Source: an uncultured Clostridia bacterium
GTDB taxonomy: Bacteria; Bacillota; Clostridia; Oscillospirales; Acutalibacteraceae
Assembly: GCA_947369085.1 (NCBI GenBank)
Contig: CANBJR010000010.1
Coordinates: 1-64,000 of the forward strand
Length of the DNA stretch: 64,000 nt
Direction of reading: 5' to 3'
Numbering within the stretch: the first letter of the stretch is position 1; every line of letters begins with the position of its first letter. Made by a program: the position numbers and the translations under genes. This document shows positions 14,039 through 35,285 of this stretch, one piece after another. Under the pieces are notes generated by a model, which was not told the origin of the DNA, searched no databases, and saw nothing but the letters and a program-made list of their open reading frames with translations.

Positions 14039-15925
14039 TTAAATTATTGTGACCTTGTGGTCATTCAGAAACTTTTTTATTGATTGCATAGACTGACCCG
14101 CCATCGTCTGCATGGCGGTATCAATCCAGATATGCGATTCATTAGAATACAAAAGATTGCATGGTGAATACTGGAAGATATGACTACTCAGTTTATACGG
14201 CAGTTTCAGGCCGAGGCATATAAGTGCCAGAGACTCGACTGCAGGCGGATGCTTTCCGTTTATTATCCGGCTTACCGCATCCGAATTCATGGAGATGTTT
14301 TCTGCCAGTTCTTTATAAGATGTCCCACTGTCCTTGAATGCTTTCTGAAGGCAGTCTACATAATCGGTCGTGAACGTCTTATAAAGATTTACATAGTGGA
14401 TGATATAATCATCAAGAACTTCCTTCTGCCGCTCCGGAGGAGAATACTTAAGGCCGTCTGTATATGCAACATTAAGGATAACTTTGGCGTCCTTATCCTT
14501 ATTAAGATAGCAAACGGTGTAATATTCATTATCATCGCAGCCGACCACAGTCATGTCGAATGCAAGGCAGCATTTGTCCATGTGGTTACGTGCATAATCT
14601 GTAAGGACGGTCAAGCCCTCCTCATCGGTCTGCAAGTATTTACCGGAAGCGATAACCAGATGCGAGTCAACATACTGGTAAGAGCCGTCTGAAATAATCT
14701 CCTTCAGTTTTCTGTTGCTCATTACCTGACGGGCAAGATCCTCTGCACCGATGGTAAAAGTCTGATTGTTTTTAAGAGAGCCTTTTTTGAAGCGATGTGT
14801 TGCTACATAATGGTCATCGATCCAGTTAAATGTTCCGACTGCCTCTTCATATCCTGCCTCAACCATACGAATCTTAGCGGCAAGGCGCGAAACACCAAAA
14901 TCCACAGCAAGAGCATCGATAACAGGTTCTATGACATCAATTAGATCGAATTTCCCGAGACGTTCACGATACTCCTTAACCCGCTTCGACGCCATGATTT
15001 TAAATGCTCTCATCGGCATCTGGATTCTTGGAGTCAATGCATTTGCCTGACGCTCCATCTGGCTTACCGCACTGCTGTCGCGCCCTTTTACACCACCGAC
15101 AACACGGCAGCCGATCATACTGACATCATTATTACATAGCCGATCCAGTTCAAATGCCTTTTTGTGGAAGTCCCAGTGAACGCATTCATGGATGATCGTG
15201 TTGTTAACTTTGCCAAGGTTGTAAAGGAAATATGTCTGCGGATCAACGAGTATCGTTCTTGCCGGAATATGTACGATTTCGGTCTTCTTCGTCTTGTCAT
15301 CATACAATTCTGCATCACAGTCCTTGAAATAGACCTGTCCGAAGATGCTGCAATCCTCTGTTATAGAACGGATGACAACATTCAGATTCATACTCTTTGC
15401 CACTTCCATCGGATCGACATAACCGACATCAACCAGTGCCTTCTTATAATTCCGGCGCAGAAAGCCTTCTGCCGCCTCTTCGTAATCAGGCTTATTAATA
15501 ATCGGCACGAGACTGTCATAAAGTTTCTGCTGGTAGTGGTCTTTGGAATTATATATCTCCACACCATTGACCGTAAAGTCATTCAGATCCTTTTCCAGAT
15601 CACCGGTGCAGCGAAGAACAAACCACTGTTGCGGCCACTCGACCTCGTCATAATGATAATCGCCTTCATGAACTTCGATCTGTGCCTCAACACGGATATC
15701 GAATCCAATCTGGCTGCCAGGAAGGTCGTATGCGTCAACATGAAGCACTTTTGTTTCTGCAACTTCAAATTCCCCGACCTGGTGAATTCTGTATAATCTC
15801 AGGTTGAGGCTGTCAAAATCTTCACGGCCGACTTCTTCGACATAGGAATCAACAGAGTTAAAAATCTCGTTATCAAACCGCTGCGACACATATTCTTTGA
15901 ATGAACGACTTCCTGCCAAATACAT
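14039..15925 (-). CDS. ImmA/IrrE metallopeptidase with C-terminal HTH domain
   Basis: NTIIHECVHWDFHKKAF (HExxH) and C-terminal DSGTSYKELAENISMNSDAVSRIINGKHPPAVESLALICLGLKLP (HTH). Confidence 0.85.
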   Translation of the reverse strand: MYLAGSRSFKEYVSQRFDNEIFNSVDSYVEEVGREDFDSLNLRLYRIHQVGEFEVAETKVLHVDAYDLPGSQIGFDIRVEAQIEVHEGDYHYDEVEWPQQWFVLRCTGDLEKDLNDFTVNGVEIYNSKDHYQQKLYDSLVPIINKPDYEEAAEGFLRRNYKKALVDVGYVDPMEVAKSMNLNVVIRSITEDCSIFGQVYFKDCDAELYDDKTKKTEIVHIPARTILVDPQTYFLYNLGKVNNTIIHECVHWDFHKKAFELDRLCNNDVSMIGCRVVGGVKGRDSSAVSQMERQANALTPRIQMPMRAFKIMASKRVKEYRERLGKFDLIDVIEPVIDALAVDFGVSRLAAKIRMVEAGYEEAVGTFNWIDDHYVATHRFKKGSLKNNQTFTIGAEDLARQVMSNRKLKEIISDGSYQYVDSHLVIASGKYLQTDEEGLTVLTDYARNHMDKCCLAFDMTVVGCDDNEYYTVCYLNKDKDAKVILNVAYTDGLKYSPPERQKEVLDDYIIHYVNLYKTFTTDYVDCLQKAFKDSGTSYKELAENISMNSDAVSRIINGKHPPAVESLALICLGLKLPYKLSSHIFQYSPCNLLYSNESHIWIDTAMQTMAGQSMQSIKKFLNDHKVTII

Positions 15926-15931: not shown

Positions 15932-17365
15932 CTATAATTCAAGCATGCTGATATCCATTTTCCTGCCTGACAGATAGTGGTCGTAGACCATATCAGCAGG
16001 AAGAAACCGCACCTTGATATTCTGTAATCCCAAAGCGGAGAGCATTTCCATCGATGCCTCTCCGTGATCTTCAATTTCTTTGTTCTCTGTTGGCATCAGA
16101 AAACAGTTCTTTACTACAGAGAATTCATGATCCATTATGAACTTCTGATATGCCAGCTGGTATAAATACTGCTTTGTCACAGACTCAATTCCGGGCTGCC
16201 CCTTTGGAGCATTTCCCGGTACAAGCTGCGCATTATAATACTTTGCATCAAATATAACGAACTGATCACCCGCAATCGAAACAAGGTCAGGGATAAGCGT
16301 ATCTGATGCCGTTTTCCCGGTCACCGACCACAGAGGCTTTTCTATCAAATCAATCAGTTTTTGCTTTCGGTCATATTCCGACTTAAGCGGTATCGGCAAC
16401 TGCAAAGCACCCAATCTGACATCAAGCTGATTGTCCATGATATCAGCGCATATGCCCTCCCATACAAGATTGAAGCTGTTTGTACCGAAGAGCGACAGGC
16501 AATCAGTATCATAAAGGCTGCCGCTATGTGCAATATAGGCATAGATGGTTTTCAGCAGAAGCTGCTTCCTGGTATTGAACTGAGTATTCAGTTCTTTCTC
16601 TATACGATAGAGGATGTACTCCTCTTCACCGAAATCATCGAGGACTTCATCGGTCAGATCCACTCCCGTGATTTCAAAGAGATCGAGCAGTTCTGCCTCC
16701 TTCAGTTCCTCCGACGCCTTTGTCAGGATACACTCATGCAGCCTCTTAAAGTAATCATAATCGTCTGTTACACGCTTCTTTGTCTGGAGATCGATATAGT
16801 ACGGTCTGTTATTCGAAATGAGAGTGAAGGTCTCGTTAATTGTCTTATCCCAAAGAATCTCGCCAGAACCATTGCTCTCGATGATGTCTTCCGTGTTGCT
16901 ATACACACCGTTTTCATAATAATCCTGCATGAGGAACAGAAGCACAGCAAGCAGATTAAATGCGCTGCTCTCACTGCTGTCATTGAACATCCGAACAATC
17001 TGTTCCTTAGTATTGTATTTCTCCAGAACTTTTAGCACCTGCCGCAACTCATTCTTTGGCTGATCAGCATTAAGCAGGTACTTCGGATAGCATTTAAGAA
17101 CGCGCCCGGCAACGACAATAACACCCACGAAGGTAAAGACATACAGATATTCGTCTTCGCCGATCTCAACATCTGCGACCTCGATATCCTCATCCATAAG
17201 GTCAGACATATCCCGTTGGAGATCAGATGCTTTGACCGCTTTCAGAACACCGAACTCTTTTAATTTCCGTATCAGCGGGATTGCTTTTTCTTCAGAGCAT
17301 CTGAGTATTTTACATAATTCTTTCTGTGTATATCTCTTTTGCTCTCTTACGAACTCAGAGATCAT
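15932..17365 (-). CDS. LlaJI/McrC-like restriction endonuclease subunit
   Basis: PDLVSIAGDQFVIFDAKYYN PD-(D/E)xK pattern; adjacent to McrB-like gene and two m5C MTases. Confidence 0.85.
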   Translation of the reverse strand: MISEFVREQKRYTQKELCKILRCSEEKAIPLIRKLKEFGVLKAVKASDLQRDMSDLMDEDIEVADVEIGEDEYLYVFTFVGVIVVAGRVLKCYPKYLLNADQPKNELRQVLKVLEKYNTKEQIVRMFNDSSESSAFNLLAVLLFLMQDYYENGVYSNTEDIIESNGSGEILWDKTINETFTLISNNRPYYIDLQTKKRVTDDYDYFKRLHECILTKASEELKEAELLDLFEITGVDLTDEVLDDFGEEEYILYRIEKELNTQFNTRKQLLLKTIYAYIAHSGSLYDTDCLSLFGTNSFNLVWEGICADIMDNQLDVRLGALQLPIPLKSEYDRKQKLIDLIEKPLWSVTGKTASDTLIPDLVSIAGDQFVIFDAKYYNAQLVPGNAPKGQPGIESVTKQYLYQLAYQKFIMDHEFSVVKNCFLMPTENKEIEDHGEASMEMLSALGLQNIKVRFLPADMVYDHYLSGRKMDISMLEL

Positions 17366-17379
17366 AAGCTACGACCTCC

Positions 17380-19317
17380 TTAGTTTTCGTCTTCAGTCAG
17401 TGCCCACTGTGGCTCCTCCGGCTCGGTTTCAAGTTGGATTTCGTGATTAAAGATACCGATACCCTTGGCATCAAATTCCCTGCAGATTTCTGAGTAACGA
17501 GTGCTGTCCTGGAAACAACCCTCAAACAGTTTAGCCCGTTTCTGCTTTGCTGCATCCTCGAACAGATACATGATCACCTTGTTCTTAAAGACACGGATAA
17601 AGTGCTCGCGGTCCATCTCATCACCATCGGTAGGTACTACAATATTTTTGGAAATGAAATAGGGACCAAGCTGCTTATCCTCGTTGATTTTCTCCTTTGC
17701 CAGGAAATGATTGATGGCTTTCCGCAGCTTGTTCCATTCGACCTTCTGCGATTTATCATCAGCAAGGTACACATACTTGCCGCGGATTTTTTCATCACTG
17801 TCATCAATACCGAGGTAGGTGAAGTCCCAGCGGCGCTTAAAGGCCGTATCCATCGGGAACACACCTTGGTCAGCACTGTTCATGGTAGCCCAGATGAACA
17901 TATTGTCCGGAATACGAATCTTGGCATAATCCTCCGGGTTACCGCCCAGTTCTTTAGCGAGATATGCTTTGATGTCTTCGGACGCCTGAATCGGATACTC
18001 ACTTACCTCGTTATCGCCACGATCAAGAAGCTGGAATACATCTCCAAAAACCGCTGCGACATTTGCACGATTGATTTCTTCAATTATAAGAAGAAACGGT
18101 TTCGGATTTGCTGTTCTTGCACTTTTAAGAGCGTTAACATAAACGCGCATGAAAGGTCCAGGAACGTACTCATAAGCGATATCGCTTGACTTTTCTTTTC
18201 CCGTAATAAGATTTACATACTTTCTAATTGCCCGTCCATGATTCTTCTCAACACTATTATCTCCGGCAGCATCACTTCCATCCTGTTTTCTTGTTTTAAA
18301 AGACTCATCGGTATATAGACCGAGGAGAACCGGAAGGCGTGTAAGTCCCTCATCCTTAAAGCGATCATACAAAAGATCGTACTTCTCCTGTGCTGTTCTG
18401 CTCTTGTCTGTAAGAATGGAAAGAACATACTTTGTATCCGGATCAGCAAGGGCATCTGCTTGTCCCTCCACCATCACGGGCTTATATGTACCCACAAAAT
18501 TGGCATATGAATAATCCGGATGGAATGTAACACGTTCATAATCTGTTTCGTTTTCTTCGCCGATTAGTTTCTTTCGTTCTTGATTGATTGTATAACTTTT
18601 TCCAGTACCCGGAGCCCCGAAAAGAATCCGATTGCGTGGGAACAGGGATTGTAATCCAGTACAAAAGATCAACTGTTCTACTTGTTCGCTCTCCTCTACA
18701 CCAGTGCTTTCTACCTCTGGAGGCGTGTGTTCTGCCAGTTCGGTAACTGTTCCTGTATGCAGCCAATCGCTATTTTTAAGATAGAAATATAAGAACTCTG
18801 GTTTAAACGCACATGCGTATTCTCCGCGCCCCTTATCCTGCTGCACAAAACCCTCTTGAATAGCTTTAGCAATGCTGTCAATTTTAATTTGCTTTGAAAT
18901 AGGTGTCTCAACAGAGGCAGCACTTGACTGCATTAACTTCCATGTGCAAAGTATTTCTTGCCCATCCTTTGAATAAACTCCGAGAAATACTCCCTTTTTC
19001 CCTTGAACGTACTTTTCATAGACGTAATTTAGAAACTTTGCTTTCGGCTGAATTCTCTGTTCATCCTTTAATCCCTGTCGACCACCGGGCGTGGTTCCCT
19101 TACCACAAATATAAATAGGTTCAAACTCACCGTTTGGGTATTCGACGCAAAACACATCTTCATAACCATCAACCTGCGACAACTGAGTTTCATACGGAAA
19201 AAGAGAAAAAGCGTGCCTTAAACTCTGCAGGACTTGTTCAGCAGAAAAGTAGGCTGATCTGTCATAATCCTCAGTGATTATTTCACCTTTACTGTTGGCA
19301 AATTGATATTCCGGCAT
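17380..19317 (-). CDS. McrB-like AAA+ NTPase, LlaJI.R1-type
   Basis: ILFGAPGTGKSYTINQE, PFLLIIEEINRANVAAVFGDVFQLLDR, FIWATMNSADQGVFPMDTAFKRRWDF. Confidence 0.92.
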   Translation of the reverse strand: MPEYQFANSKGEIITEDYDRSAYFSAEQVLQSLRHAFSLFPYETQLSQVDGYEDVFCVEYPNGEFEPIYICGKGTTPGGRQGLKDEQRIQPKAKFLNYVYEKYVQGKKGVFLGVYSKDGQEILCTWKLMQSSAASVETPISKQIKIDSIAKAIQEGFVQQDKGRGEYACAFKPEFLYFYLKNSDWLHTGTVTELAEHTPPEVESTGVEESEQVEQLIFCTGLQSLFPRNRILFGAPGTGKSYTINQERKKLIGEENETDYERVTFHPDYSYANFVGTYKPVMVEGQADALADPDTKYVLSILTDKSRTAQEKYDLLYDRFKDEGLTRLPVLLGLYTDESFKTRKQDGSDAAGDNSVEKNHGRAIRKYVNLITGKEKSSDIAYEYVPGPFMRVYVNALKSARTANPKPFLLIIEEINRANVAAVFGDVFQLLDRGDNEVSEYPIQASEDIKAYLAKELGGNPEDYAKIRIPDNMFIWATMNSADQGVFPMDTAFKRRWDFTYLGIDDSDEKIRGKYVYLADDKSQKVEWNKLRKAINHFLAKEKINEDKQLGPYFISKNIVVPTDGDEMDREHFIRVFKNKVIMYLFEDAAKQKRAKLFEGCFQDSTRYSEICREFDAKGIGIFNHEIQLETEPEEPQWALTEDEN

Positions 19318-19330
19318 TTAGCCCACCTCC

Positions 19331-20404
19331 TTACTCCTTTGTTGCATTACCACTGAAATACTGGTCATTGATGGCTTGTGCTACAATCTGAGCCATTCTC
19401 ACAGGAACAGCGTTTCCTACTTGTCTCCACTGGTCTCGAAAATCTCCGCATAATTCATAGTCATCATCAAATGTCTGAATCCTCTTTATTTCATTGATTC
19501 GAAGAAATCGGTTTTTCCAGTGAAACGGCCCCATGTTATTAGAGAAACTTGCTTGTATAGTCCACGAAGGACGATCCGGAGATAGTTTTAGCAAGAAAGA
19601 CCAATAACGTGACCGCCATTTAAATATCGGATTTGGATAACCCCTCTCCGCAGTAAAATACAAATAATTATCACCTGGAGGTACAAGTTTCAGAAGATCC
19701 TTATGTTTTGATCCTGCTTGCATCTCTGCATCTTCGGGCAGATCATAATCAAGATCACCGATTGCCTCTCCACAAGTGACCCATGGCCTTTTATCTCCTC
19801 TTTTATCTTCCGACACTTTTTCAGGATCGTAATGTGTCTCTTCCGGAAAAACAAAAGGCAAACCTTCTCCACGCTTTATTCCAACACAAATAAAACGTTC
19901 CCGCATTTGAGGTACACCATAATTTGCTGTGTTGACCACTTTGAACGTAATATCATATCCGTATTCGTCCGCACGTTCTTTGAGCAATTCAAACGCAGCT
20001 TGATGCGGTTTATACACAAAACCAAACACATTCTCAAAGAAGAATACCCTGGGTCTAATTTCATCTAATGCCCTGAAATATTCATAAAGAGTAAACGAGT
20101 TCTCGTCTTCCAATGCTCGCTTCTTCTCGGTACGGTAAAATCGTGATTTGGAGTAAGCCGGGCAGGGCGGTCCTCCAACCAAGACATCAATGTCAGCTTT
20201 TGTCATTCCTATTTTTGCAAGGCAGTCATCGTAGTTTATATTTCGAATATCATCGCAAACCACCATCTTGCCCACTTTATTTTTTTCAAGCGTATCACAT
20301 GCAGGCTTCCAGAAATCTGTCGAAAAGCAGATATCGAAACCCGCTTTTTTAAAGCCGCAATCTATGCCACCTCCGCCTGAGAAGATACTCAATACATTTG
20401 GCAT
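19331..20404 (-). CDS. DNA cytosine-5 methyltransferase
   Basis: MPNVLSIFSGGGGIDCGF..., VLVGGPPCPAYSKSRF; start ATG overlaps upstream TAA (TAATG). Confidence 0.93.
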   Translation of the reverse strand: MPNVLSIFSGGGGIDCGFKKAGFDICFSTDFWKPACDTLEKNKVGKMVVCDDIRNINYDDCLAKIGMTKADIDVLVGGPPCPAYSKSRFYRTEKKRALEDENSFTLYEYFRALDEIRPRVFFFENVFGFVYKPHQAAFELLKERADEYGYDITFKVVNTANYGVPQMRERFICVGIKRGEGLPFVFPEETHYDPEKVSEDKRGDKRPWVTCGEAIGDLDYDLPEDAEMQAGSKHKDLLKLVPPGDNYLYFTAERGYPNPIFKWRSRYWSFLLKLSPDRPSWTIQASFSNNMGPFHWKNRFLRINEIKRIQTFDDDYELCGDFRDQWRQVGNAVPVRMAQIVAQAINDQYFSGNATKE

Positions 20405-21465
20405 TAGTCTAAACTCTCCTTTAAATACTCTATCATTGCTTTCCCCATCAGGCACGGCACTGCATTGCCTATCTGCTTTTGAACAGAACGTCTTGTTCCG
20501 CAGAATTTATATCCACGGGGGAAAGTTTGGATTGCAGCGGCCTCGGGTGCCCTTAATCGCCGATTATCCCAGTGGAAAGGACCAACCCATGGACCGGGCT
20601 GCGCAGTAATCGTCCACGAAGGCATATCCGGTGACAGTTTCAGAAGGAAACTCCAAAACCGCTTATCTGCAACAAACTTCGGATTCGGATATCCTGCCCA
20701 TGCCGTCAACGCTTTGTAATTCTGCCCAGGGGGAACCTCGCACAAGTCTTCATAGTATGTGCCACCCTTCGTGACTTCGTATTCCTCAAAATATTCATCA
20801 CCATCGAATCCTTCAAGGAATGGACCAACCGCAGCGTAAGGCTGAAGACCTGTTATTGCACAAGTCTCAGGATCGCCGTGTGTTTTAACAGGTTCGCTAT
20901 GTTTAAATTCTCCTTTTGTTCCGATAATGAACAGCCTTTTTCGTTTCTGGGGAACTCCGTAATCCAAAGCATTCGCCCTGACAATTTTATACTTGTACCC
21001 ACTCTCTTCAATTATCTCTATAAACTTATCTATAATAGATTTGTTTGTGGGATGCATCAGGCTCTCAACATTTTCAAAAACAAATCCATCTGGTTGAATA
21101 TCTGTTACCACTCTCAAATATTCGTCTACAAGAGTGGCTCTCGGATCATTAATGCCTTTTCTTGTATTATTTCCGACCCAGTAACCCGCTTTTGAAAACG
21201 GCTGACATGGCGCACCGCCAATTACAATAAATTTCCTATGCTCATGTTTGCTGACAATATCTGAAAAAACAGAACTTTCAATCTGGTGCAAATCTCCTTC
21301 TAGTATTTCAGTGTTCCCAAATAAGTCTTCATTTGCTTTAAGAGTTTGAATACAGTCAGCATCAAAATCTGTGCTGGATACTACAGGAACACCAGCCATA
21401 ATACTTGCTATATCCAATCCGCCCGCACCAGAAAACAGACTGACTGCAATTATATCGTTGTTCAT
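20404..21465 (-). CDS. DNA cytosine-5 methyltransferase
   Basis: AVSLFSGAGGLDIASIMAG, IGGAPCQPFSKAGYWVG; start after CAGGAG. Confidence 0.93.
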   Translation of the reverse strand: MNNDIIAVSLFSGAGGLDIASIMAGVPVVSSTDFDADCIQTLKANEDLFGNTEILEGDLHQIESSVFSDIVSKHEHRKFIVIGGAPCQPFSKAGYWVGNNTRKGINDPRATLVDEYLRVVTDIQPDGFVFENVESLMHPTNKSIIDKFIEIIEESGYKYKIVRANALDYGVPQKRKRLFIIGTKGEFKHSEPVKTHGDPETCAITGLQPYAAVGPFLEGFDGDEYFEEYEVTKGGTYYEDLCEVPPGQNYKALTAWAGYPNPKFVADKRFWSFLLKLSPDMPSWTITAQPGPWVGPFHWDNRRLRAPEAAAIQTFPRGYKFCGTRRSVQKQIGNAVPCLMGKAMIEYLKESLD

Positions 21466-21488
21466 ACGCATCTCCTGTTGCTTAAAGT

Positions 21489-21677
21489 TTACATGGCACT
21501 TTTGCCACTTTTTATCCATTCATCGACTTCGGATAGTTTGAACTTCCATTTTCGCCCGATTTTATGCGCAGGTATGTCTGTCTTCTTTATCCAATTCCTA
21601 ACGGTATCTTTGTTTACCCCTAAGTATTCAGCGACCTCTTCCAGGCTTACCCAAGGTTCAGTATTTTGAAGCTGCAT
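21489..21677 (-). CDS. excisionase-like MerR-type HTH protein
   Basis: WVSLEEVAEYLGVNKDTVRNWIKKTDIPAHKIGRKWKFKLSEVDEWIKSGK. Confidence 0.9.
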   Translation of the reverse strand: MQLQNTEPWVSLEEVAEYLGVNKDTVRNWIKKTDIPAHKIGRKWKFKLSEVDEWIKSGKSAM

Positions 21678-21892: not shown

Positions 21893-21922
21893 AAATTATT
21901 ATTGGATAAGGAGACGAGAATC

Positions 21923-22990
21923 ATGCCTTATAATCAGATTACTGCAACCGGGGCAATCGCTCCCGGAGTTGCACCTACGGGCCCCGATGCAAAACAAATT
22001 AGAGACTTAATCGATAGGGAACTGAATTCCAATGGATTTATATTTAAATGGGTTTCTAAAAACAAACAGCCTTATAGGGGAATTCTTGATACTGGTGGTA
22101 CACCAATTGACCTCTATATTTACGCATGGCGAATTGGCGATGGCGGTCGCATACGGCAAGGACGAATCTCTGAAAAGCGCATACAGTTAAATCCAGGCAC
22201 TGATCGCAGTGCTTTTGCGCTCCCCATAACTCCCACACAAAAGACTCTTCTGTTAGGAGTTTACGATAGTCCGCACGGTGAACCTATTTTCTCAGCATGG
22301 GATGCTACAAATATCGATCTCCTGAAAGCCACGCAGAAATCGGAATGGGTACAGGTCGAGGATTTGCAGAAAGCAATTTCTAACGGTATCTATCAGTTTA
22401 AAGACAGTGATGGTAACATTGGCTATTCGTTCTTGCCAAGCTACTTAGGTGATTATATTGACCTTGTCACGCCCGGTAATACTCTCACTGTTCCTTCTTC
22501 TACGACTGCCACTCTCAGTACCAAGGTGAAGACGGCCACAAAAACGCACAAGAAAGCCAGGACCATTAGATCCACAGATGCTATCTTGAAAAGTATCTCA
22601 AACGTTGACGAAACAGAGCGCCGTGCACTCACAAAACAGCGTGTCGGGCAAGGTTACTTCAGGGAATTATTAATGAACAAGTATGGGTGCAAGTGTGCAC
22701 TTTGCGGAATTACTACTAAACAGATGCTTGTAGGTAGTCATATAAAAGCATGGAGTGATTGTAATAACACAGAAAAGCTGGACGAAAACAATGGCTTGCT
22801 TCTCTGCGCACATCACGATGCTTTGTTCGATAAACACTTAATATCTTTTGAGGATACCGGAGATCTTATAGTCTCAACTACGCTAAATGCCAGTGAGCAA
22901 GCAGAACTTCATATTTCCACAATACCTCCGATTACGGTCACTCCGGGTATGAAGCCATATTTAGCTGACCACCGTTCAAAATTAAAGTAA
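21923..22990 (+). CDS. HNH endonuclease with N-terminal McrB-related domain
   Basis: CALCGITTKQMLVGSHIKAWSDCNNTEKLDENNGLLLCAHHDALFDKHLI; starts after AAGGAG. Confidence 0.9.
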   Translation: MPYNQITATGAIAPGVAPTGPDAKQIRDLIDRELNSNGFIFKWVSKNKQPYRGILDTGGTPIDLYIYAWRIGDGGRIRQGRISEKRIQLNPGTDRSAFALPITPTQKTLLLGVYDSPHGEPIFSAWDATNIDLLKATQKSEWVQVEDLQKAISNGIYQFKDSDGNIGYSFLPSYLGDYIDLVTPGNTLTVPSSTTATLSTKVKTATKTHKKARTIRSTDAILKSISNVDETERRALTKQRVGQGYFRELLMNKYGCKCALCGITTKQMLVGSHIKAWSDCNNTEKLDENNGLLLCAHHDALFDKHLISFEDTGDLIVSTTLNASEQAELHISTIPPITVTPGMKPYLADHRSKLK

Positions 22991-23004: not shown

Positions 23005-23271
23005 ATGAAGCAGTTACCTCAAAAGCGGGAACTCATGGATGCCATTTTAATAGTGATGAAAAATGCCAATGGTGCCATGAATACCGCTACTATTAATGAC
23101 CTCGTAGAAAAGCGTTTAAGTATTCCAAAGGACTTACTTGAAATCGAGGGCGCCAATTGTTCGGGCACAGAATACAGTTACCGAATGCGCTGGGCAAGAA
23201 CTGAATTAAAGCAGAAAGGCTTTATCCGAAATGTAAAGCGAGGCGAATGGGAAATCTGCCCTGAACAATAA
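23005..23271 (+). CDS. winged-helix protein, Mrr N-terminal-like
   Basis: RELMDAILIVMKNANGAMNTATINDLVEKRLSI...YRMRWARTELKQKGFIRNVKRGEWEI. Confidence 0.75.
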   Translation: MKQLPQKRELMDAILIVMKNANGAMNTATINDLVEKRLSIPKDLLEIEGANCSGTEYSYRMRWARTELKQKGFIRNVKRGEWEICPEQ

Positions 23272-23513
23272 AAACGGATGTAAATGCACACTCTCATAAC
23301 ATTGATAATTCCTGTTCGTTACGGGATATAACAATCGTTATGGACGTGTGCATTTTCTATTAGCTAACGACCATTATATGGACTCTTGATACTCATAATC
23401 TCAAAATGCAGACAAAAAATAAGCCCTCTGCACACCCCTCGGTGTGAGAAAGGCAGTAATTCCTTTGTATTGTAAAACACCCTAACGAAAACAGGCAGAA
23501 ACCCTTGTATCAA

Positions 23514-25156
23514 TCACGCAACTGTTTCATCGCATATTTTTATGGTGTTTATTATAGAGTTAATTTCTTTTGCTGTCAAAAGGGAGGTAATATTAAATTT
23601 TACTTCGTCTAAATCATTACACTTCCACTTGTAATGACTATTTATTTTATCAATTACCGTCTTCTCAATAGTCTGTTTGCACATATATTCTGTAATTATG
23701 CTCGGGGTATATACAGAACCATCTTTATAACCGTTCAGTTTTTCAAAAATAAGTCCAAGTACAGAAGCATCTATAATTTCACGATTTTTCGTTCTTTTTT
23801 CATCATCTGTTCCTTGAGCAGAGAAATCATAACTATTCAGAAAATTTATTATATATTCTAATAAGGGAATTTCTTTTGGCGCATGTTTCCCAAGAGACGA
23901 TTTGCTCGCACGATTTACTTTTTCATTCCTGATTTCTTTAATATTTATATCTTCACGTTCAATATCTTGTTGCTCAAACAAAGAACTGTTCAGGTACGGA
24001 ATTTCAGTAAATTGATTATAAAATCGGTCGTCATTGCGCTCTTTCTTACCGAGGACATTAAAGAAAAGCTTCTGTAAATCACTAAAGCTTTTAATTTTTG
24101 TATTATCAAAATTTTGTATGCATAATCGTTACTGTTAAAGGATATAAGCTGTCCCTCAAACAGCTTAATAAGTAAAAGACGATTTATCCAAATAATGATA
24201 AGTTCAAAAGTTTTCTCTGTTGCTTCTTTTTTTGAATGGTATATATCATTATAGCCTTTGTCATCCACATAAATGTTGTAAACCTGATTAGTCAATGAAT
24301 TCTTAATAGATGAATCAATTTGAATGACCGTCTTGTTTTTATTGTTTTCATCCTTTGCCTCTTTCAGTCCCATAATATAAAGCAGTTCATGGTAGAAATT
24401 ATTGTTGAGCACATTTGTCTTTGCCTCAACATTGTATCCCTCTTTCAGCAAAAACTCCTTGGACAGAATTTTATATAAATACCTATCTTCTTTTGATTTA
24501 AATTTTCTAATATCAAAAAATGTATATACAAGCTTATTTGAGACATTTATTTTATCAAAATAATCTTTGATATCTTCATAGAATTTCGAAGTATTTTTAG
24601 CATAAGTAAGCTTATTATTTTCATATTTCCAAAAGAGTTTTTCAAGATAGCCGTCACATATCTTATCCAATTCCGTTGCATCTATGATCATCCATGTTAA
24701 TGCATCTGTAATTATTAAATTTTTCAACTCGGAGTTAGTATTTCTCGTAATCTTCTTGCTATCAGTATTTCTGGTTTCTTTTAAGAAGTAATAAGTTAAT
24801 TCCCATAAAGCTTTTTTATTAATGTTATCTTTGCATACCATTTCCTGAATATTGGTAGTTTTCTTAACCTCTATAAGCACATTATTAACTCCGTAAACCC
24901 GAATAGATGAGTCAACACTTTTATTAGTATTAATATCATATATACTTCTATCAGGATAAAAATTATCCTGCAGAAAATCATTAATTTCTCTTTTGAAGTA
25001 TTCCTCGTTTTCGTTATTAGTAATACCTAAATCTATTTTCTTTTTATATACTTTTAATGATGTTGAAAAATCATCAAAAGTTGTTTTTGGAATTTTGACT
25101 CTATAATATCTCTCGTCAAATTTCTCCAATGTTTTGTCTATTAACTGCAGTGCCAT
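23514..25156 (-). pseudogene. type IIG/Eco57I-like (PglX/DrmMI-like) restriction-methylase, frameshifted and truncated at motif I
   Basis: Track ORFs 23990-25192 and 23514-23981 join across ~24108 to read ...NTKIKSFSDLQKLFFNVLGKKERNDDRFYNQFTEIPYLNSSLFEQQDIERE...LGLIFEKLNGYKDGSVYTPSIITEYMCK...INTIKICD then DETVA*, lacking DPAxGSGxF and everything after. Confidence 0.85.
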
Positions 25157-25268
25157 ATAATGTCCTCCGTGTAGCCTTATAAAGAAAATCAATATATACT
25201 GATTTCGAATAAACTATACTATAGAATATTTCAAATTATTTTCTTCGTTTAATAAAAGATTGGCGAGT

Positions 25269-27086
25269 TTACAACTTGTTTGCTAATTCACCCATAAATC
25301 CCAATTGTAAATTATCAGGCATACCTACAACTGATACTCTATCCAATAAAACATTTCGGAATTCGCATGAAGTTTCCGGCAGTAAGGTGCACGCATGACA
25401 TGCGGCATAATTCAAAGAAGCAAAGCCTTGATGCATTGAAGTTGAGCACAAAGGATCGCCACTGCACCAACGCGCCTCTTTAAGCATATTTTTTAACACC
25501 TTGTCCAACAATTCGGTATCTTCAGCAACACTGATTAAACCTCCAAGACTTCCATCGCTGTCGGAAGATGACAAATATATCAGCACGCCGTTCATCACTG
25601 TATCATTTGTACCATCAGTAAAAGTTGAATATATTTTTTCTCGCATAGAAGCTGCGCTATAACCACATTCATTTGCAAGCTGTCTTATAAATAAATGGGC
25701 AAATGTATGCAGCAAAATATATTGAGGTGAAAATTTAGGAGATTTAAAAAAGCTATTTTGATGTGATATTTTTAATTCATCATATCTACTACCTATTCTG
25801 CGTATCCATCTGTCAATTACGGATTTTTTAAACTTAATAAATATTCCCTCGCCGTTAAGTTCAGTGGCCGGAAGCCACTCTTTCTTTTCTAAAGATAAAG
25901 GAGCTATGCGTTCAGAATTTTTACCGTCATAAGGATATAGCCTTGTAAAACCACTTAAGGTCATCGTAACAACCAGTCTGTCAACTACAGACTCTATATC
26001 AAAGTATTCTTTGAAATCATTCGGAATATTGACAAAATGTGATGAATATCTATCCTCTGAAATCTTATCCTTACATAAGATTTTATATTCATCTGCATAC
26101 ACATCAGCCTCAATACGAATCATATTTGATTTTCTGCGATTTTTGAGAGTTTCATATGCATCTAACAAATTATCAAGTCCGAGATACGGACATTTAGGTA
26201 AAATACAGTTTTTGATATATTCTACTTGTTTTTCATTTGTCATATATGAGAGACGTTCATACTCTTTTTCAATTTGGTGTATGGCTCTTTGACTCCAAGG
26301 TGGTATTAACAAAGCACTTTGCGTAACAGGAAAATATATACCGGATGACGCTCTAAGTCTTGTTGTCGGCACAGCCGTACATTCTTGCGTAAAATCTCCT
26401 AAATGCGGATGCTTCCCACAACAAGGTCGTCCGTTCTCACCTGCGAAAGCATTTTTATTAAACACTCCAACCATACTGCGTTTCTCTCCACATTCTGCGC
26501 ATTCCAAAATAAGACTTTCAGTGTCGCTTCGTCCGCCTATATTATACATCTTTACTCGTGGTACAGATTTTCCGCTTTTACAAGGCTTTCCACTATGCAC
26601 CCACCATGAGTATGGAAAATCCTCCATATGTCCATTTTCGCATATAAGTACAAAGCGAGAAGCTACAAGCTGTCCATTGCAGGGTTTTCCGTTTTTTCCA
26701 TATTGATTACATTTTTGCTTATTAGACTGATTAGTAAGTTCACGATAATCAATAATGCTTTTGCATACCGGACAATATAACTTTTGTGGAAAAACATAAG
26801 ATAAAATATCTTGATTAGAAAGCAAATATGACGCTCCTCCGGAGACCTTAGGAGAAAGAAAATATTTAGCGCCGGTAAATGATTGTAAATTTTCATTAGT
26901 AAGCTGACGGTTTTCCCAACCATCATCTTTATCCCAATCATCAACGCCGCCGATAACTGCAGTTTCTCTTACAAAATCAACTATACTGCCTATACCATAT
27001 GTGGATATTATCTGACTTTTTCTTATCTCGCCGATATGATGTTTTATTTTATTTGCTTTTTTCATTCTTTTAAAAGGATTTGACAC
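25269..27086 (-). CDS. drmB: DrmB-like protein (DUF1998)
   Basis: N-terminal HIGEIRKSQIISTYGIGSIVDF; C-terminal LLHTFAHLFIRQLANECGYS...GVLIYLSSSDSDGSLGGLI...C-rich. Confidence 0.88.
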   Translation of the reverse strand: MSNPFKRMKKANKIKHHIGEIRKSQIISTYGIGSIVDFVRETAVIGGVDDWDKDDGWENRQLTNENLQSFTGAKYFLSPKVSGGASYLLSNQDILSYVFPQKLYCPVCKSIIDYRELTNQSNKQKCNQYGKNGKPCNGQLVASRFVLICENGHMEDFPYSWWVHSGKPCKSGKSVPRVKMYNIGGRSDTESLILECAECGEKRSMVGVFNKNAFAGENGRPCCGKHPHLGDFTQECTAVPTTRLRASSGIYFPVTQSALLIPPWSQRAIHQIEKEYERLSYMTNEKQVEYIKNCILPKCPYLGLDNLLDAYETLKNRRKSNMIRIEADVYADEYKILCKDKISEDRYSSHFVNIPNDFKEYFDIESVVDRLVVTMTLSGFTRLYPYDGKNSERIAPLSLEKKEWLPATELNGEGIFIKFKKSVIDRWIRRIGSRYDELKISHQNSFFKSPKFSPQYILLHTFAHLFIRQLANECGYSAASMREKIYSTFTDGTNDTVMNGVLIYLSSSDSDGSLGGLISVAEDTELLDKVLKNMLKEARWCSGDPLCSTSMHQGFASLNYAACHACTLLPETSCEFRNVLLDRVSVVGMPDNLQLGFMGELANKL

Positions 27087-27098: not shown

Positions 27099-30000
27099 TT
27101 ATTGCTCAATATATACATTAGAACTTTCTTCTACATTCCGCAAAGAATTAAGGACAGGAGGAAAATCAAAATCTGAAGTTTCTTCCGCTGAATTTAATAA
27201 GGAAATATTTCCGCTTTGCTTGCTATCATAGCATAAATTAGGGTAAATCTTTGTAATAGAATCCCATTCTGAAATTATTTCATTCAATATACATTCGGCT
27301 GTATCTTTTGCTTTTGGATGTAAGTTATATACTCTTTCAAGTATAAAATTCTTTATTTGTAACACTTGGGCATCATTTCTTTGAAAATATGCAGGAGAAT
27401 CATTGCCTGAAAGATATGGAACAGTTAGACGCACTAATGCAATAAACACATAGTGCAGTGCTTTTTCCATTGCTCTTGCAGAAAAAGGCGTTACACTTGT
27501 GGCTTCAACATACTGATAAAATGATTTATGATAAAATCCAAACTGCTCATAATGTGACTTATCCCTTGAGCGCATAGGATTATACATAGCTATAACAACA
27601 CCGGGCTTGCTTCGTCCTACACGGCTTGTTGCCTGAATATACTCAGCATTCGTTTTTGGTTGGTTATAGACCGTCATAACACCTAATCTATTTATATCTA
27701 TTCCTACTGACAGCATATTTGATGCTAATACATACGAATAACAACCGTTTTTATTATAAGCAAAATCCAAATGCTCAAGTGTATCCTTTATCTCTTTGGC
27801 GCTCTTTCTTCCGGTAAGCTCTTCGCTATAAAGATACGGAATATCCCTTTCGGACAAACCTAATAAAGTGCATATTTCTTGGAATTTTCTTTCGATTAAT
27901 GTTTTAATATGCGTATATATACGATCCTGCAAAATATTTGCGGAAGCACCTAAATCACGAATAGCATTAAAATATCCAATAACCGTATAATACTGATCAA
28001 TTACCTCATCTGTTTTTCCTTGTTTTATAAACAAGGCTTTAACAAAAGTAAGTATTGCGTAAATACGCACGAGCAAATCTGCAACGCTTCCTCCGCTTTC
28101 ACAAACTCCAATATATGTTCTCGCCGGTCGTTCATCTTTGCTTGCTATACGAGAAAAGAATGAATCATCAAAAGAGATACCGCTTGGCGGAAATTGCTGC
28201 ATCTTTTTATTATATAGGTTTCTTATTTGCTCATCAGCGTTTTTAACAGTTGCAGTAGAAGCTATAATTTTAGGTGAAATTCCGTCTTTTCTGCAAAGAT
28301 AATCGACTGCAATTTCATATAATCCTTCAGGTGAACCAAGAGATCCTGATATAAGATGAAGTTCATCTTGAATTATCAAAGATGGAGGAACTTTTTCAAC
28401 ACCAAATAAACGCTTAGTATCCTCTACCCACGCCAGACGTGCAAATTTATCAATAGTACTCAACAATAATGTCGGACATTGCTTGTAAATGTCATCATCT
28501 ACAATATAAATAGGAAGCTTTTCATGAAATTCGCAATTAGGGTTATCTTTACAACAAATTGTCATACCGTCAGGACCTATGCTATAGCTGGTAATATCAA
28601 TTTTTTCACCGCACCAAGGACAAGTTGTTATTTGAACGGGGTTTCCCTCGTATATTTTTTCATCCCTATTATTTTTTAGTTTTTGCAAAACTTCATTTGC
28701 TTTTTCTAAGTTATTTGGTGTAGTTGCTGATCCTATCCATAAACCAATGCTTATTTCGCCACCCGGAATATCGTAAATTCTTCGTAAGTATTCACACGCA
28801 CAAATCATTGCAGCCGTACGCTCAAATTGCTGTATAGTCAAAAGTCTGAGTGTATACCGCATTATTACGGTTACACCATCATCAACATATCTTTTCGAAA
28901 TTCTGCGATATAAAATAGTAAATGCCGCAACACCAAGATATGCTTCTGTTTTTCCGCCACCAGTAGGAAACCATAGTAAGTCAACATCATCGTGAAATTC
29001 ACTTTTTGGATCAACTATATCCGGTACTATTTGCAATATGTAGGCAAGCTGAAACGGATACCAATTAACTTGTTCGGGCTTTTGTTTTTTGGTATTGACA
29101 CGCTGCAACAACATAGCTTCGTTCATAAACAAAAATGCTTTCCAAGCATTGTCATTGTTTTTTAAAACATCAACTCCTGTTCTGAGCCGTTTTATACATA
29201 TCTCAATACGATTTATCAATTCAACTGCTGCTTTGTAAAACTGACTAATTGATTTAATCTCTTTTCTCTTACATTCTTTCCATTCTTCATACTCATCAAT
29301 AAAAGCATTTAAATCATTGCAGGCCGTCTTACGGTCTGCATTTTTCCAAGTATCCAATGACAGTATTCTTGCATTTTTTATTTTACCGGGCATCATTTGC
29401 AAAACCTGTTCCGTCGGAATAAAATCACTTGATATTTTAAATACTCCTCTTTTTGTTTCATCATATGAAACTGAACATCCGTGTCCGTATGCATAGTTTT
29501 TTACATTCTGATACAGTAAAGATTTTATCTGAGATTCTATATCAGATTTAGGATACAGATTTTGATATACAGGCAAAAACGAGCTATCAGATTCAACAGA
29601 TAGTTGACATTGAAACAGTGCATATTCATTTCTTATGTGCAGTTTATTCTTTTCAGTTGCAGTATTTACTACTGAAACAGTCAGCAGCTTACTGCCATCT
29701 GACATAATTTTCCTGACCGTTAAGTTTATTTCAGCATTGAAATCGTCATAATAAGCTATACTTTCACCTCCAAGTTCTGAAGGAATATTGAAAGTCAAAT
29801 TGATACTTTTCGGTATGCGTGTGTATTTATGGTCAGTTATCTCCTTAATGTTTTTTTCAGACAATTCACCCAAAGTTAGTTGTCCTTTTTCTTCAATAGT
29901 TCCGGAGCTTGGTATTTTCCGTTTGCTTTCTGAATGCTTATAAATACCAAAATCAAATGTTACTAACAACTTTTTTAAGGATGGAGGAACCATAACCGAG

Positions 30001-30308
30001 ATTCCCATAGACGAAGGTCTGTAATTATTTGCTTCGGTAATTGTATCATCAAGACTGTCAAGTGTATTCTCAAGCAATATATTATCTTCGGCATTAAGCT
30101 CATTTTCCTCAGAATCAAATAATGCTATTTGGTGGTTAACGCTATTATTTTGCGATGCCTTTCTCGGATACAATATTCCTGTAACATATGCAGAAAGCGG
30201 CTCAACATTTTCCAAAATCTCATCTTCTGAAGAAACCCCAAATAAATCCTTTGTTAAACATTCTTTTATTTCATCAATTGCTTTGTAGTATTCGTCAAAA
30301 CCACTCAT
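27099..30308 (-). CDS. drmA: DrmA-like helicase
   Basis: LLWFPTGGGKTEAYLGVAAF Walker A, LIIQDELHLISGSLGSPEGLYE, YIQATSRVGRSKPGVVIAMYNPMRSRDKSHYEQF. Confidence 0.9.
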   Translation of the reverse strand: MSGFDEYYKAIDEIKECLTKDLFGVSSEDEILENVEPLSAYVTGILYPRKASQNNSVNHQIALFDSEENELNAEDNILLENTLDSLDDTITEANNYRPSSMGISVMVPPSLKKLLVTFDFGIYKHSESKRKIPSSGTIEEKGQLTLGELSEKNIKEITDHKYTRIPKSINLTFNIPSELGGESIAYYDDFNAEINLTVRKIMSDGSKLLTVSVVNTATEKNKLHIRNEYALFQCQLSVESDSSFLPVYQNLYPKSDIESQIKSLLYQNVKNYAYGHGCSVSYDETKRGVFKISSDFIPTEQVLQMMPGKIKNARILSLDTWKNADRKTACNDLNAFIDEYEEWKECKRKEIKSISQFYKAAVELINRIEICIKRLRTGVDVLKNNDNAWKAFLFMNEAMLLQRVNTKKQKPEQVNWYPFQLAYILQIVPDIVDPKSEFHDDVDLLWFPTGGGKTEAYLGVAAFTILYRRISKRYVDDGVTVIMRYTLRLLTIQQFERTAAMICACEYLRRIYDIPGGEISIGLWIGSATTPNNLEKANEVLQKLKNNRDEKIYEGNPVQITTCPWCGEKIDITSYSIGPDGMTICCKDNPNCEFHEKLPIYIVDDDIYKQCPTLLLSTIDKFARLAWVEDTKRLFGVEKVPPSLIIQDELHLISGSLGSPEGLYEIAVDYLCRKDGISPKIIASTATVKNADEQIRNLYNKKMQQFPPSGISFDDSFFSRIASKDERPARTYIGVCESGGSVADLLVRIYAILTFVKALFIKQGKTDEVIDQYYTVIGYFNAIRDLGASANILQDRIYTHIKTLIERKFQEICTLLGLSERDIPYLYSEELTGRKSAKEIKDTLEHLDFAYNKNGCYSYVLASNMLSVGIDINRLGVMTVYNQPKTNAEYIQATSRVGRSKPGVVIAMYNPMRSRDKSHYEQFGFYHKSFYQYVEATSVTPFSARAMEKALHYVFIALVRLTVPYLSGNDSPAYFQRNDAQVLQIKNFILERVYNLHPKAKDTAECILNEIISEWDSITKIYPNLCYDSKQSGNISLLNSAEETSDFDFPPVLNSLRNVEESSNVYIEQ

Positions 30309-30309
30309 A

Positions 30310-32657
30310 TTATATCTCCGTCCATTCTGTTCTGCCGAAACCGCTTATTTCAACGCCTAACCAAAAACGGTTATTTCGAAAAATTTGCGGAATGTTTTCA
30401 TAATTTTTATTCGAAACATATGTTATTACATTTGTAATATATAAATTACTGATTTTATCCGGAAGTCTGGTAGATATAAATCGTCTGCCGCCGAATTTTT
30501 CCCTAAGATTATCGGAATATTCTCTTGTCATTTCACCAATTACAATATCATTGTGTATGATATAATATCTGTCTTCGCTGTTAAGCTTTAAATAAATCTC
30601 ATCTTCAGCTTTAACATTATTTGCAATGTATTCTTGTCTTGTTACAGCTTCAATCAGATTTCCGCTAACAAAAGAACTGTAATCTATATCATTGGGAAGA
30701 CCTGTCGCAAAGCCGGCACAAAAGGGGTTTTTATAAGGTACTTTTATCGTTCTAATCCATCGGTTGCAATTACTTTTTAAAAAATACCAATCATATTTTT
30801 TGCCTTTTTTCAGAATTTCAAGCTCTTTTTTCGGACGTGTTTCAGCCACATAAAGAATTCTTTCTTCCTCAGTATCTGATTCATCCTTTTTATAATCCGG
30901 ATTATAGTCATATCCAAGCAGATATACCTTGTCAAATTCACGACCTTTAGCCTTATGTATAGTGGACACAATAAGATGGTTATTATTTTCATTTCGAATA
31001 GTTTCCGGGAAATCAATTTTTTGGCATAAAATTTCAGCCAGCTTTTCACGGTCAATATAATCATAGGCATAATCGGATGTAATTTCCGTTAAAAATTCTG
31101 TCAAGCTATTATAAAAGCCGTCAGCTTGCTTTTCGGTAAAATCACATCTGACACAAAGTCTTTTTGTGAATTCATCCTTCGACATAATTTTATCAGCATA
31201 GTCCCAGAGCACATCAGCTATACATCTATTTAGAGACATATCTTGCCCGATGTTTCGCACAAGGGTATGAGGTATTTTTTTACTATGTAAAAGTGTACTC
31301 ATATACTCTGCTTCATCATTATTTCTACATAGAATAGCAGTAGTATCTTCTTCCGGAGTATTAGTTTTGCTGAAATTTTCAGCCGATACTGTTGTCGGAA
31401 GAGTCAAAAGCATTTTTCTAAAAACAGCAGTAATATTACTAGGATCAAAATTAAGCAAAGAAGAACGCAATTCAGTTGTTTGTTCATTTAAAAATTGTGA
31501 CTGCCGCTTATTTCCTGTTAATTCATACTTTTTTGTATTGTCAGGCAGTATTTCACCTAAGCATTTATAAAATTCAGTTGAATTAATGTTTTGCTCACCT
31601 GTGCAATCGTAATCGTAAATCGCCTGACATTTATCTCCGAGAAGCAAATACCCGCAACATAAAGCATTAAGAATATTCAACATCATTAAGGCACGATCGT
31701 TAACCAAATCCTGAAGTTCATCTACTATGCAGTAAACAAAGTCTTCAAAATCTTCAGAATTTATCTTCTCATTAAAAAGGCATATTCTTTGATTATAATC
31801 AAGCTTAGAAAGCTCGTCCAAGCTAACACCAATAGTAATTAAGTAGTTCGTCGCTATAGAATCAAATGTGCAGATATTAACCTGATTTGCTTCATAAGGT
31901 ATTATGCCAGCCTTTACACCCTCTTGAATACGCTTTTTAATTTCTGCAACAGTGCTCGTGTGTAACAAAGGACAAGGATTGCATCACAATTTTCCGGTGA
32001 AGTATTTTTCAAAATATAAAGCAATCGTTGAATAGCTGTGTATGTTTTTCCTGTTCCCAGTCCGGCATTGACAAGAATATGACTGTTTAAATCTGTTTCA
32101 ATAATTGCATCTATTGCCTGAATTTCGTCAATTTCAACATACTCTGCACGATCAGTAACTATATCCTCAATTCTGATTACTGCTTCATCAGGTACAAATT
32201 CTTCATTACTGTTGGATTCAAAATCCGGCTCAGCAAACACATCCGTGTTTCCTTTAATTCCAAGCCACTCAAGTTCAACGACACCGTCATCATCTTCTTC
32301 AGTTACCGTTATCTCACTGCGATTAATTTTTTTGGGGGTACAAATAAAACAGTCTTTTGCTTCACATCTGCACTCATAAAAATATTCACCGTTTTTAAAT
32401 ACTTTTCCAAATGATTTTTCGCCTTTTGGGGCATGTATACATGATGAAGACTCTTGTAATTCCTTTTCTTGAACAGGGCTCAATCGAACGCTTGATAAAG
32501 TTCCGCTATATTTATGTTTTATTACTTCCAAAGCATTTTGACCGGAAACATGAGCTACAAATTCAGGATCACGTTGTAAATCGTCAAATCCATCAACAAA
32601 AGACCGGGGATTTCGAATATATATGTTACTAACAATATTTATATTTGATTTGTACAT
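30310..32657 (-). pseudogene. UvrD/Rep-like SF1 helicase split by a frameshift
   Basis: ORF 31914-32657 carries SHILVNAGLGTGKTYTAIQRLLYIL...CDAILVLCYT; ORF 30310-31968 continues VAEIKKRIQEG...YCIVDELQDL...VSTIHKAKGREFDKVYLLGYD. Confidence 0.88.
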
Positions 32658-32668: not shown

Positions 32669-34126
32669 TTATTTGCCTATTGCTGATAAATCATAATAAA
32701 AGGTAAGGTTATGAATCTTAATTTTACTGTCTTTAAGCTCATCAGCTACAGTATTGTTATGTATTTTTATATTTGCTATTTGGTCCTTATCAATTTCCGC
32801 TGTAACCTCAAGCCGCTCCTGCAAAAAACCTTTTGTAGGAATATTCATCTTATCATAGACAATTCTTCCATCACCGTTAGTTATTATGAAGTGGGCATCA
32901 GGTGAATCCTTTGTAAGAGAAAATGCAAATCTATTGCTTTTAGAGCCGACTCCATCTTTATTTTTATGTAAAATCGGAAAAATTGTATTATCAGACATTA
33001 CAATTCCAACATCATCACTTAGCTTGAATTCCCCACCTATAAACGGCATAAGTGCAGCTCCCTTTGCTGAAACAAACTGCACTTTGTCCGGAATAATGAT
33101 TTTATCTCTACCAAAAAGATTGGTAATAGCATCGGCAAAAGGACGAAGATTACTGCTTCCGCCTGCAATAATAACGGCATCAATGCTTGATTTTGTAAGT
33201 TCAGCTCGTTCCATAGCACTGTTTATAGTTTTAAGCACACGATTACGGATAATAGGTTTAACAATATCTTCAAACATATCGCTTGATATTGGTATGGTCT
33301 TTGTTCCGTAGTCGCCATAATTTCTTAATGTAAGCGGATATTCATCACCGTCTTCAGAAATCTGAATTTTCGCTTCTTCACAGCGTGACACTATTTTATC
33401 TCACTGTGATGCAGGCATTTCGCTAAACGATAAACGCTTATCCGAATCAGCCGTTTTTAGGTTAATGACAGAATGAATCCTTTGAGCTAATTCTGTATCA
33501 ATATCATCACCGCCGATTTTCTCGCCAAATACAGAAACCTCACGCAGTTTAGAACCCTCAGATTCAAGAATGCTGATGTCAAGTGTTCCGCCGCCCCAAT
33601 CAATAACCATAATTCGAGAAAGTCCCTTTACATCTTTACAGGTAGCCAAATACGCTGCAGTTGATTCAGAAACAAGATATTTTACTTTTAATCCTGCTCT
33701 TTCTGCCGCAAGTCTTAAATCAAAGCGAGCTTTCGCAGTAAAGTCGACCGGAAATGAAAGTGATACCTCTTCGATTTGAATGCCATGCTTTTGCTTAATA
33801 TACTGCTTCAAGCACTTAAAATATTGGGTAACAATTTGACTTGGTGTAAATTCAATTCCGTTTAAAACTACTTTTTTATTCGTACCAAGAAGTGATTTTA
33901 AGGATGAGACAAGCTGATGCTTTTCAGAATATTCATCACGCTTGCTTTTAACCTTATTCCCAAACTCTACTCGATTATCCGGTAAAACAGCCAATAATGA
34001 GACAAAGGGGAATTCGCCGTCTTCACCGAGAATAGTCATCTTTTCACCGTATGAATTCTTATCTATACGAACCACAGATGTATTAGTTGTTCCAAAATCT
34101 ATGCCTATCGAACTTCCTACACTCAT
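32669..34126 (-). pseudogene. Hsp70/DnaK-like ATPase interrupted by an in-frame TGA
   Basis: IGIDFGTTNTSVVRID...VIDWGGGTLDISIL...EMPASQ(TGA)DKIVSRCEEAKIQIS...AVIIAGGSSNLRPFADAI; both halves in the same frame (34147 and 33391 congruent mod 3). Confidence 0.9.
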
Positions 34127-34143
34127 AATCGAACCTCCATAAA

Positions 34144-35285
34144 TCATTCAAAATTAAACCCAAATCTTTTTAATATTTTAAATATCCGCTGCAAACTTGC
34201 ATAATTAGCTTGAAAATTATCTTCATTAAAGGTTGTATCGCTTGAGCAATATTCATCATATTCAGCCTTAAGTGTATCTGAAACATTTTTAACAAGAGTT
34301 TCAAGTTCTTGGCTTTTACTGAGAGTATCCATTTGAAAAGCTGTTTTAAGGCGTTCATTTAGATTAGCAATTTCTGACGATTGTTTACAGATTTTTTCTT
34401 CAAGTGCTGCTTTTTCAACCGCTAAATCCGAACAGCGTTGTTTACAGTCCTCCAATTCCTGATTCAAGCGTAAAATTTCCGCTTCTTTTGCGTCAATATC
34501 ATTTTTGCCGTTTTTAGTGTTGAAATAATACTGTTCGTATTTGTCAGATTATTGACCTGCTCTACAAGCGTCTGACTTATATTGCGTAACTGCTCAACCA
34601 CCAACTGATGCTGTATGGCGGTCTTTTTCGGCAAACTGTTATCCGGCAATGATTTCTCCTCTAAGTCCCGTTTCTCGGTTATATTTCCATTTTCAGTTTT
34701 ATCAACCGACGAATCTTGACCATTTGAGTTTGATTCATTACTTGTATCTTTATTTTCACTCTTTTCAACATCTGCCAAAAAACTTAGTATCATATCCTTA
34801 TCAGCTTTATTTTTTAATGTGTCCAACAAGGAAATAAAATTATCTAATTGGTCTTTATCTCTAATATATTTTTGAAAATACTCTACCATTTTCGTAGAAA
34901 ATCCATTATCAAGCTTACCATTAAAAATCACGCTGGCAGATAACTCGGCTGTTATACTTTTATTGATATTATATCTCAGAAAAGCCTCACACAAAACTAA
35001 ACCACGGTTAAACACTGTCACGTTATTCTTCTTATTAAAGCACTTATTTTTCTTAAACGCATTAAGGAAACATTCTGCTTCATCATCAGTTATTCTATAT
35101 TGTTTGAAGAATTCTTCACATACAGAATGTGGAAATTTAACAAACCAATTAACAATAGTATTGTAATCTTTATTTTCAGAAAACAATTCTATAAGTATAA
35201 GTGCAGCTTCATTTTTTGCTCTTTTATTTTTTGAATTTTTAGCTTTCGGTAAAAGTTCATTAAGTTTTTCAGAATAAGTTTCCAT
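34144..35285 (-). pseudogene. coiled-coil protein of the drm-like operon, probable -1 frameshift
   Basis: Track ORFs 34464-35285 and 34144-34467; second frame is open further upstream as GKNDIDAKEAEILRLNQELEDCKQRC, i.e. coiled coil continues across the shift. Confidence 0.7.

Follow-up and report, generated by a model that had tools for sequence, protein, structure and literature searches.

Why does a type IIG methylase gene stop at the very codons that specify its catalytic motif I, and what is the DNA that follows it? The window in which this gene lies, a stretch of 64,000 nucleotides, comprises bases 1-64000 of contig C10 (66,880 bp) in a MAG of 98 contigs that is 84.6% complete; the contig begins at window base 1, so that it offers nothing further to the left. 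Very probably, a prophage of the Heliusvirales type has its cargo-side attachment junction at the boundary between 23528 and 23529, in the motif I codons (at the Asp of DPAxGSG, in the S-adenosylmethionine-binding loop) of the host methylase; the enzyme that made the junction was most likely a large serine recombinase.

The truncated gene lies on the minus strand, where a frameshift near 24,089-24,104 divides the N-terminal half of the methylase into two open reading frames. The first (23990-25192) carries DUF7149/DUF7814 (Pfam PF23653, E=4.8e-37, and PF25120), and both match the PADLOC profile REase_MTase_IIG (PDLC03612), the first at positions 8-316 and the second (23514-23981) at positions 312-518 or, in another scan, 355-517 of 1247, with nothing beyond. 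The type IIG assignment thus refers to a profile covering the N-terminal domain and the entry into the methylase domain, and the window protein lacks the complete motif I (DPAxGSG) of such an enzyme as well as its C-terminal specificity domain. The second frame ends in KEINSIINTIKICDETVA or, given at another length, LTAKEINSIINTIKICDETVA, followed by a stop; that is, IKICD is succeeded by ETVA and a stop codon where intact relatives go on as ICDPAVGSGHF. At the aligned position, the four intact relatives, which come from Priestia, Bacteroides, Leuconostoc, and Helicobacter, read KICDPAVGSGHF, LCDPAVGSGHF, KICDPAVGSGHF, and VVDPAVGSGHF. Translation and these four relatives confirm the original prediction that the methylase stops at catalytic motif I with DETVA. 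The Asp codon GAT (23529-23531, ATC on the plus strand) is the last host-type codon; homology to the relatives ends right behind it, and comparison of the frames at the junction revealed no continuation into PAxGSGHF in any of them. Ending as it does behind the motif I Asp, the protein is a dead fragment, and the frameshift in its N-terminal half makes it a pseudogene already. The C-terminal half was not found in its own MAG, whose contig ends at window base 1. A scan of genome contigs with the methylase returned a Helicobacter enzyme (37% identical) as the sole match.

What lies directly behind the GAT codon is a 22-base phage arm, GARRCAGTTGCGTGAWTGATAC (23507-23528, minus strand; GAAACAGTTGCGTGATTGATAC as the sequence shared with G104 and G645), which provides the stop TGA. 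One exact scan of the 2.9 million viral contigs of IMG/VR with the pattern CAGTTGCGTGANTGATAC gave two matches, G104 and G645, and both sit in an hsdM gene that is cut at the identical motif I Asp codon. In G104 (L112), a window-related phage whose corresponding slot ends in the hsdM gene, the hsdM product ends in RPEPGKTIAD followed by EAVA and a stop, and the junction DNA, GCTGATGAAGCAGTTGCGTGAATGATACGG, matches that of the window, TGCGATGAAACAGTTGCGTGATTGATACAAGG. In G645 (L118), a different hsdM ends in DGTLYD followed again by EAVA and a stop. Each of these fragments contains HsdM_N plus positions 2-55 of N6_Mtase and then ends. Since the arm adjoins motif I of two other methylases and occurs nowhere else in the exact scan, the match is not due to chance. 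The looser pattern GATGANRCAGTTGCGTGA was found in 13 stretches, with the phage terminus present only at the two in hsdM; the other 11, which serve as a negative control, have no methylase before the motif and no phage end after it. When one mismatch was allowed, a scan of 397 related genomes for the arm produced the window and three matches only (G028, G379, and G381); these have no adjoining methylase and were taken as chance. Longer exact att patterns (GATACAAGGGTTTCTGCCTGTTTT and ACAGTTGCGTGATTGATACAAGGG) were too specific and had no match in the viral contigs.

Judged from their sequences, then, three different methylases, one of type IIG and two from type I HsdM families, are cut behind the same motif I Asp, and these are the only three methylase junctions now known (window, G104, and G645), one for each insertion. 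By the insertion, ETVA or EAVA and a stop are added behind the Asp, which removes the S-adenosylmethionine site together with all that lies downstream. The arm furthermore resembles the target that it displaces, GAT-GAAGCAGTTGCG versus GAT-CCAGCTGTTGGT (GAT GAA GCA GTT GCG versus GAT CCA GCT GTT GGT), a likeness that would be expected if one enzyme binds both. In the proposed mechanism, the arm would recognize the coding sequence of motif I, which is common to otherwise unrelated methylases. The same type of phage could then land in a IIG enzyme or in a type I HsdM, and each landing would truncate the gene behind the Asp and kill the methylase.

If an element has entered these genes, the uninterrupted site should be recognizable in relatives. 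For G104, it is: hsdM of Pusillibacter faecalis pMM59_01 is intact (495 aa), 84% identical to the G104 fragment, and syntenic with it, the matching upstream neighborhood including the hsdS gene. Across the insertion point this gene reads ADPCCGSGGF (KTIADPCCGSGGFFLAAQ; also given as ending in KTIADPCCGSGGFF), and a Planktothrix HsdM, used for comparison with the G645 type, has YDPACGSGGMF at the site. As with a prophage, the gene is cut at a precise point and is intact in element-free relatives (the IIG relatives and the syntenic hsdM), and the same end and arm recur at independent insertions in G104, G645, and the window. Together, the recurrence at one Asp codon and the intact syntenic hsdM support the original prediction that an element integrated within the motif I codons. 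The empty site in a related strain to which that prediction had also pointed was obtained for the G104-type insertion; for the window methylase, a search with DUF7814 in 98-397 relatives gave weak matches only and no empty site within the same genus. No match to the IIG profile was present in 26 phage records, which suggests that related phages use other sites.

A junction of this kind could also be a scar left by deletion or illegitimate recombination between a prophage remnant and a decaying DISARM-like island, of which the methylase is the last gene. The island does decay, with frameshifts in the methylase and UvrD genes and an in-frame stop in the Hsp70 gene, and the missing 3' half of the methylase would be accounted for. 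A random scar, however, would not recur, and the identical arm and terminus are found at the same codon of two other methylase genes on unrelated contigs. The three parallel junctions largely refute this explanation, which is judged very unlikely. It does count against the attachment junction that neither the 3' half of the methylase nor an integrase of the window phage was seen and that the methylase is already frameshifted; selection on the window methylase may have gone earlier or may have been lost soon after. With these reservations, the junction is probably the product of a single clean integration event in the host of the window.

The original prediction had described the DNA leftward of the junction as non-coding and unrelated. 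It is indeed non-coding for about 245 bp (23272-23516), but it is a conserved phage end rather than random DNA, and genes follow. This terminus (23272-23528, minus strand) is homologous in G102, G103, G104, and G645, and an nhmmer model built from L110, L112, and L118, with the window left out, finds window positions 23537-23284 at E=3.3e-26. Behind the arm, all three methylase insertions have about 250 bp of non-coding DNA with a long hairpin at its end. The hairpin (AAATGCACACTCTCATAAC...GTTATGGACGTGTGCATTT, 23282-23356, plus strand) has a predicted minimum free energy of -32.2 kcal/mol (z -6.1 versus 200 shuffles) and is kept in the alignment of the other termini; it may be a convergent terminator or a structural element. 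A search with the terminus pattern TTTCTCRCACYGAGGGGTGTGCA yielded only two contigs, both already known. In G103 (L110 15000-15290) and G102 (L111 9439-9760), the phage ends bear a different arm, AAATAATAGTTCCCTATATGATACGG, and each adjoins a serine recombinase gene in its N-terminal part, at a position conserved between the two, behind VYTE or IFAE. That gene apparently belongs to a neighboring prophage, and the arrangement would reflect either insertion into its integrase gene or an attP lying within this gene.

Beyond the terminus come two plus-strand genes and then a restriction cassette. The first of the two, which is the last gene of the cargo, encodes an Mrr_N-domain protein (23005-23271; PF14338, E=4.1e-11), and L014 and L016 have this gene at the corresponding position; the second encodes an MTaX1-HNH endonuclease (21902-22990; PF20296 and PF13391) with relatives in L014, L015, and L016. 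The LlaJI-type cassette (15932-21519, minus strand), identified by domain and PADLOC matches, consists of two m5C methylases (20404-21519 and 19331-20455), R1 (17380-19317), and R2 (15932-17365). It is accompanied by a large HTH protein (phrog_4031; 14039-15925, minus strand), which adjoins LlaJI in L016 and phage replication genes in L037. The remainder (1-13751, minus strand) holds phage early and replication genes by PHROGs assignment: helicase, PolA, primase, terminase small subunit, and ParB/methyltransferase. Positions 1-4509 are 90% identical to Ruminococcus phage NatCom_28274 (Ca. Heliusvirales). The alignment with IMG/VR relatives extends to about 13,670, beyond which the cargo differs, the same slot being filled by ABC-3C-like genes in G102 and by N4-type methylases with helicase/AAA genes in G103 and G104. 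The phage end consists of a conserved 250-bp non-coding terminus next to a variable cargo slot, occupied in the window by the LlaJI-type cassette. Restriction or defence cargo of its own is brought by each phage; in G645, genes for HsdR, HsdS, and HsdM of a type I system (L131 1552-7766) come immediately after the phage end at which the host hsdM is cut. The HsdM of this cargo may be atypical, as its motif I reads MAMGTSQ rather than the usual PACGSGG.

The replication genes and the terminase small subunit are present in the window, and close relatives of phage structural genes were not found on other contigs of the 84.6%-complete MAG. When NatCom_28274 DNA was used to look for the rest of the phage in the same MAG, only window positions 1-4509 and small repeats were recovered. 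A terminase on contig C8 is 34% identical to that of NatCom_28274 and probably belongs to another phage.

It might be argued that the integrated element is only the LlaJI/HNH cassette with ends of its own and that the phage replication genes are older neighbors. The LlaJI-HNH-Mrr_N cassette does recur in L014 (11334-11510) and L016 (11345-11700) at an element edge beside the rumA 3' end, a well-known integration site, and this recurrence marks it as movable cargo; a search of 98-397 relatives for the HNH cassette found no close copy, the best being 41-45% identical over part of the HNH protein. However, the terminus edges different cargo in G102, G103, G104, and G645, which are always phage contigs and mostly close relatives, and the flanks of the cassette differ in L014 and L016, so the terminus does not travel with the cassette. 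A cassette moving by itself is judged a slightly poorer candidate even than the scar. Least credible of all is an assembly chimera, which a MAG of 98 contigs and 84.6% completeness might invite but which would hardly reproduce the same architecture in independent IMG/VR contigs from other samples.

If the junction is a prophage attachment site, which enzyme made it? In G104, a 476-aa large serine recombinase lies directly beside the terminus. G645 has two serine recombinases, both located at the far end; over 387 aa, one shares 55% identity with the G104 enzyme. Further genes, among them a transposase-like (IS) one, lie behind these two, and the hsdM 3' half is not seen before the contig meets the IS element. 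An enzyme with Resolvase and Recombinase domains, placed either beside attP or at the end of the element, is thus seen in both G104 and G645, and the window contig ends before the corresponding point. The integrase of this phage lineage is therefore likely to be a large serine recombinase, and it may recognize the motif I codons themselves. In the window phage, the integrase would be expected at the other end of the element or would have been lost. Candidate arm repeats of a tyrosine integrase near the junction were abandoned in view of the shared arm and the serine recombinases.

Integration into hsdM by elements that carry serine recombinases is known. Streptococcal ICEs that carry a triplet of serine integrases insert into hsdM, mutT, or traG (Ambroset et al. 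2016, PMC4701971), and ICE 10750-RD.2 resides in hsdM (Beres and Musser 2007, PMC1949102). The resemblance extends to site-specific entry and to disruption of the gene, the ICEs having tiny direct repeats. In contrast, the ICEs are conjugative and are not known to enter hsdM at motif I, whereas here a phage lineage would use the same arm to enter a IIG enzyme and HsdM of two types. It is this use of a single arm at motif I across methylase kinds that is new. In the literature searched, outside of which most subscription papers lie, no phage arm directed to the motif I codons of several methylase families was encountered.

Temperate phages that split a host gene are familiar from the prophage insertions in comK (Listeria A118) and spsM (SP-beta). 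A Streptococcus pyogenes M1-SC prophage likewise lies in hsdRSM, where it inactivates the type I system and abolishes m6A (PMC8597746). As in the window, the host gene is split in these cases; unlike the window, each concerns a single fixed gene, with no sign that one phage type hits different methylase families. Large serine recombinases can be multi-targeting, in that a single cluster of them enters target genes of several families (Durrant et al. 2022, PMC10083194). The worked example in that study has a short AT-rich motif, whereas the candidate target here is the coding sequence of a conserved protein motif in functionally related genes. In the same survey, defence genes were not enriched overall among recombinase targets (PMC10083194), a result that counts against targeting.

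Taken together, these results have led to a broader hypothesis. A conserved motif in defence enzymes of the host seems to be the target at which these phages integrate, and the phages themselves bring restriction genes along. It can be proposed, tentatively and with some doubt, that its integrase has evolved to read methylase motif I codons (GAT CCN GCN ...), so that the phage enters and switches off a resident type IIG or type I methylase as it delivers its own cassette from the slot next to the attachment end; the choice of integration site would then serve to replace one defence by another. In type IIG and type I systems, the methylase is also needed for restriction; consequently, such a disruption should be survivable. 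If the proposal is true, lysogeny would go hand in hand with an exchange of the resident restriction system, which is lost, for that of the phage, and integration specificity could be directed to the catalytic motif of defence enzymes rather than to one housekeeping gene. An att arm and candidate recombinases with a protein-motif coding sequence as target would bear on recombinase specificity, and they may offer one explanation for methylase genes that are cut at motif I.

The host side of the junction has features of its own. Upstream of the methylase, which closes the island, lie genes for DrmB-like (25269-27086; PADLOC DrmB, E=2.4e-69), DrmA-like helicase (27099-30308; PADLOC DrmA, E=7e-227), UvrD-like helicase (30310-32657), and Hsp70-like (32669-34147) proteins, all on the minus strand. 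The UvrD-like gene is split by a frameshift near 31,914-31,968, the counterpart in L107 being a single ORF of 773 aa, and the Hsp70-like gene has an in-frame TGA near 33,398 where L106 and L107 have single ORFs of 487 and 479 aa. These two lesions indicate that the island is decaying around an intact DrmA and DrmB; counted with that of the methylase (24089-24104), three lesions stand beside two genes that are still open, and either decay or assembly errors may be responsible. DrmA and DrmB occur together, as in DISARM, and the set is possibly a DISARM-like system without DrmC. Among the proteins scanned with PADLOC, neither DrmC nor a DISARM methylase (DrmMI or DrmMII) was detected, the adjoining methylase being of the IIG type; DrmC might be located in the part that is missing. 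The Hsp70-UvrD-DrmA-DrmB order is shared with G067 and G598 (three genomes, about 37-56% identity), and the genes after DrmB vary: a IIG methylase, a DUF4357 protein, or a converging methylase-helicase pair. In G067 (L106 984-8932), a set that is JetABCD (Wadjet)-like by size and order lies downstream of DrmB, and the UvrD gene of this genome is split beside an IS200-type transposase (16127-16585).
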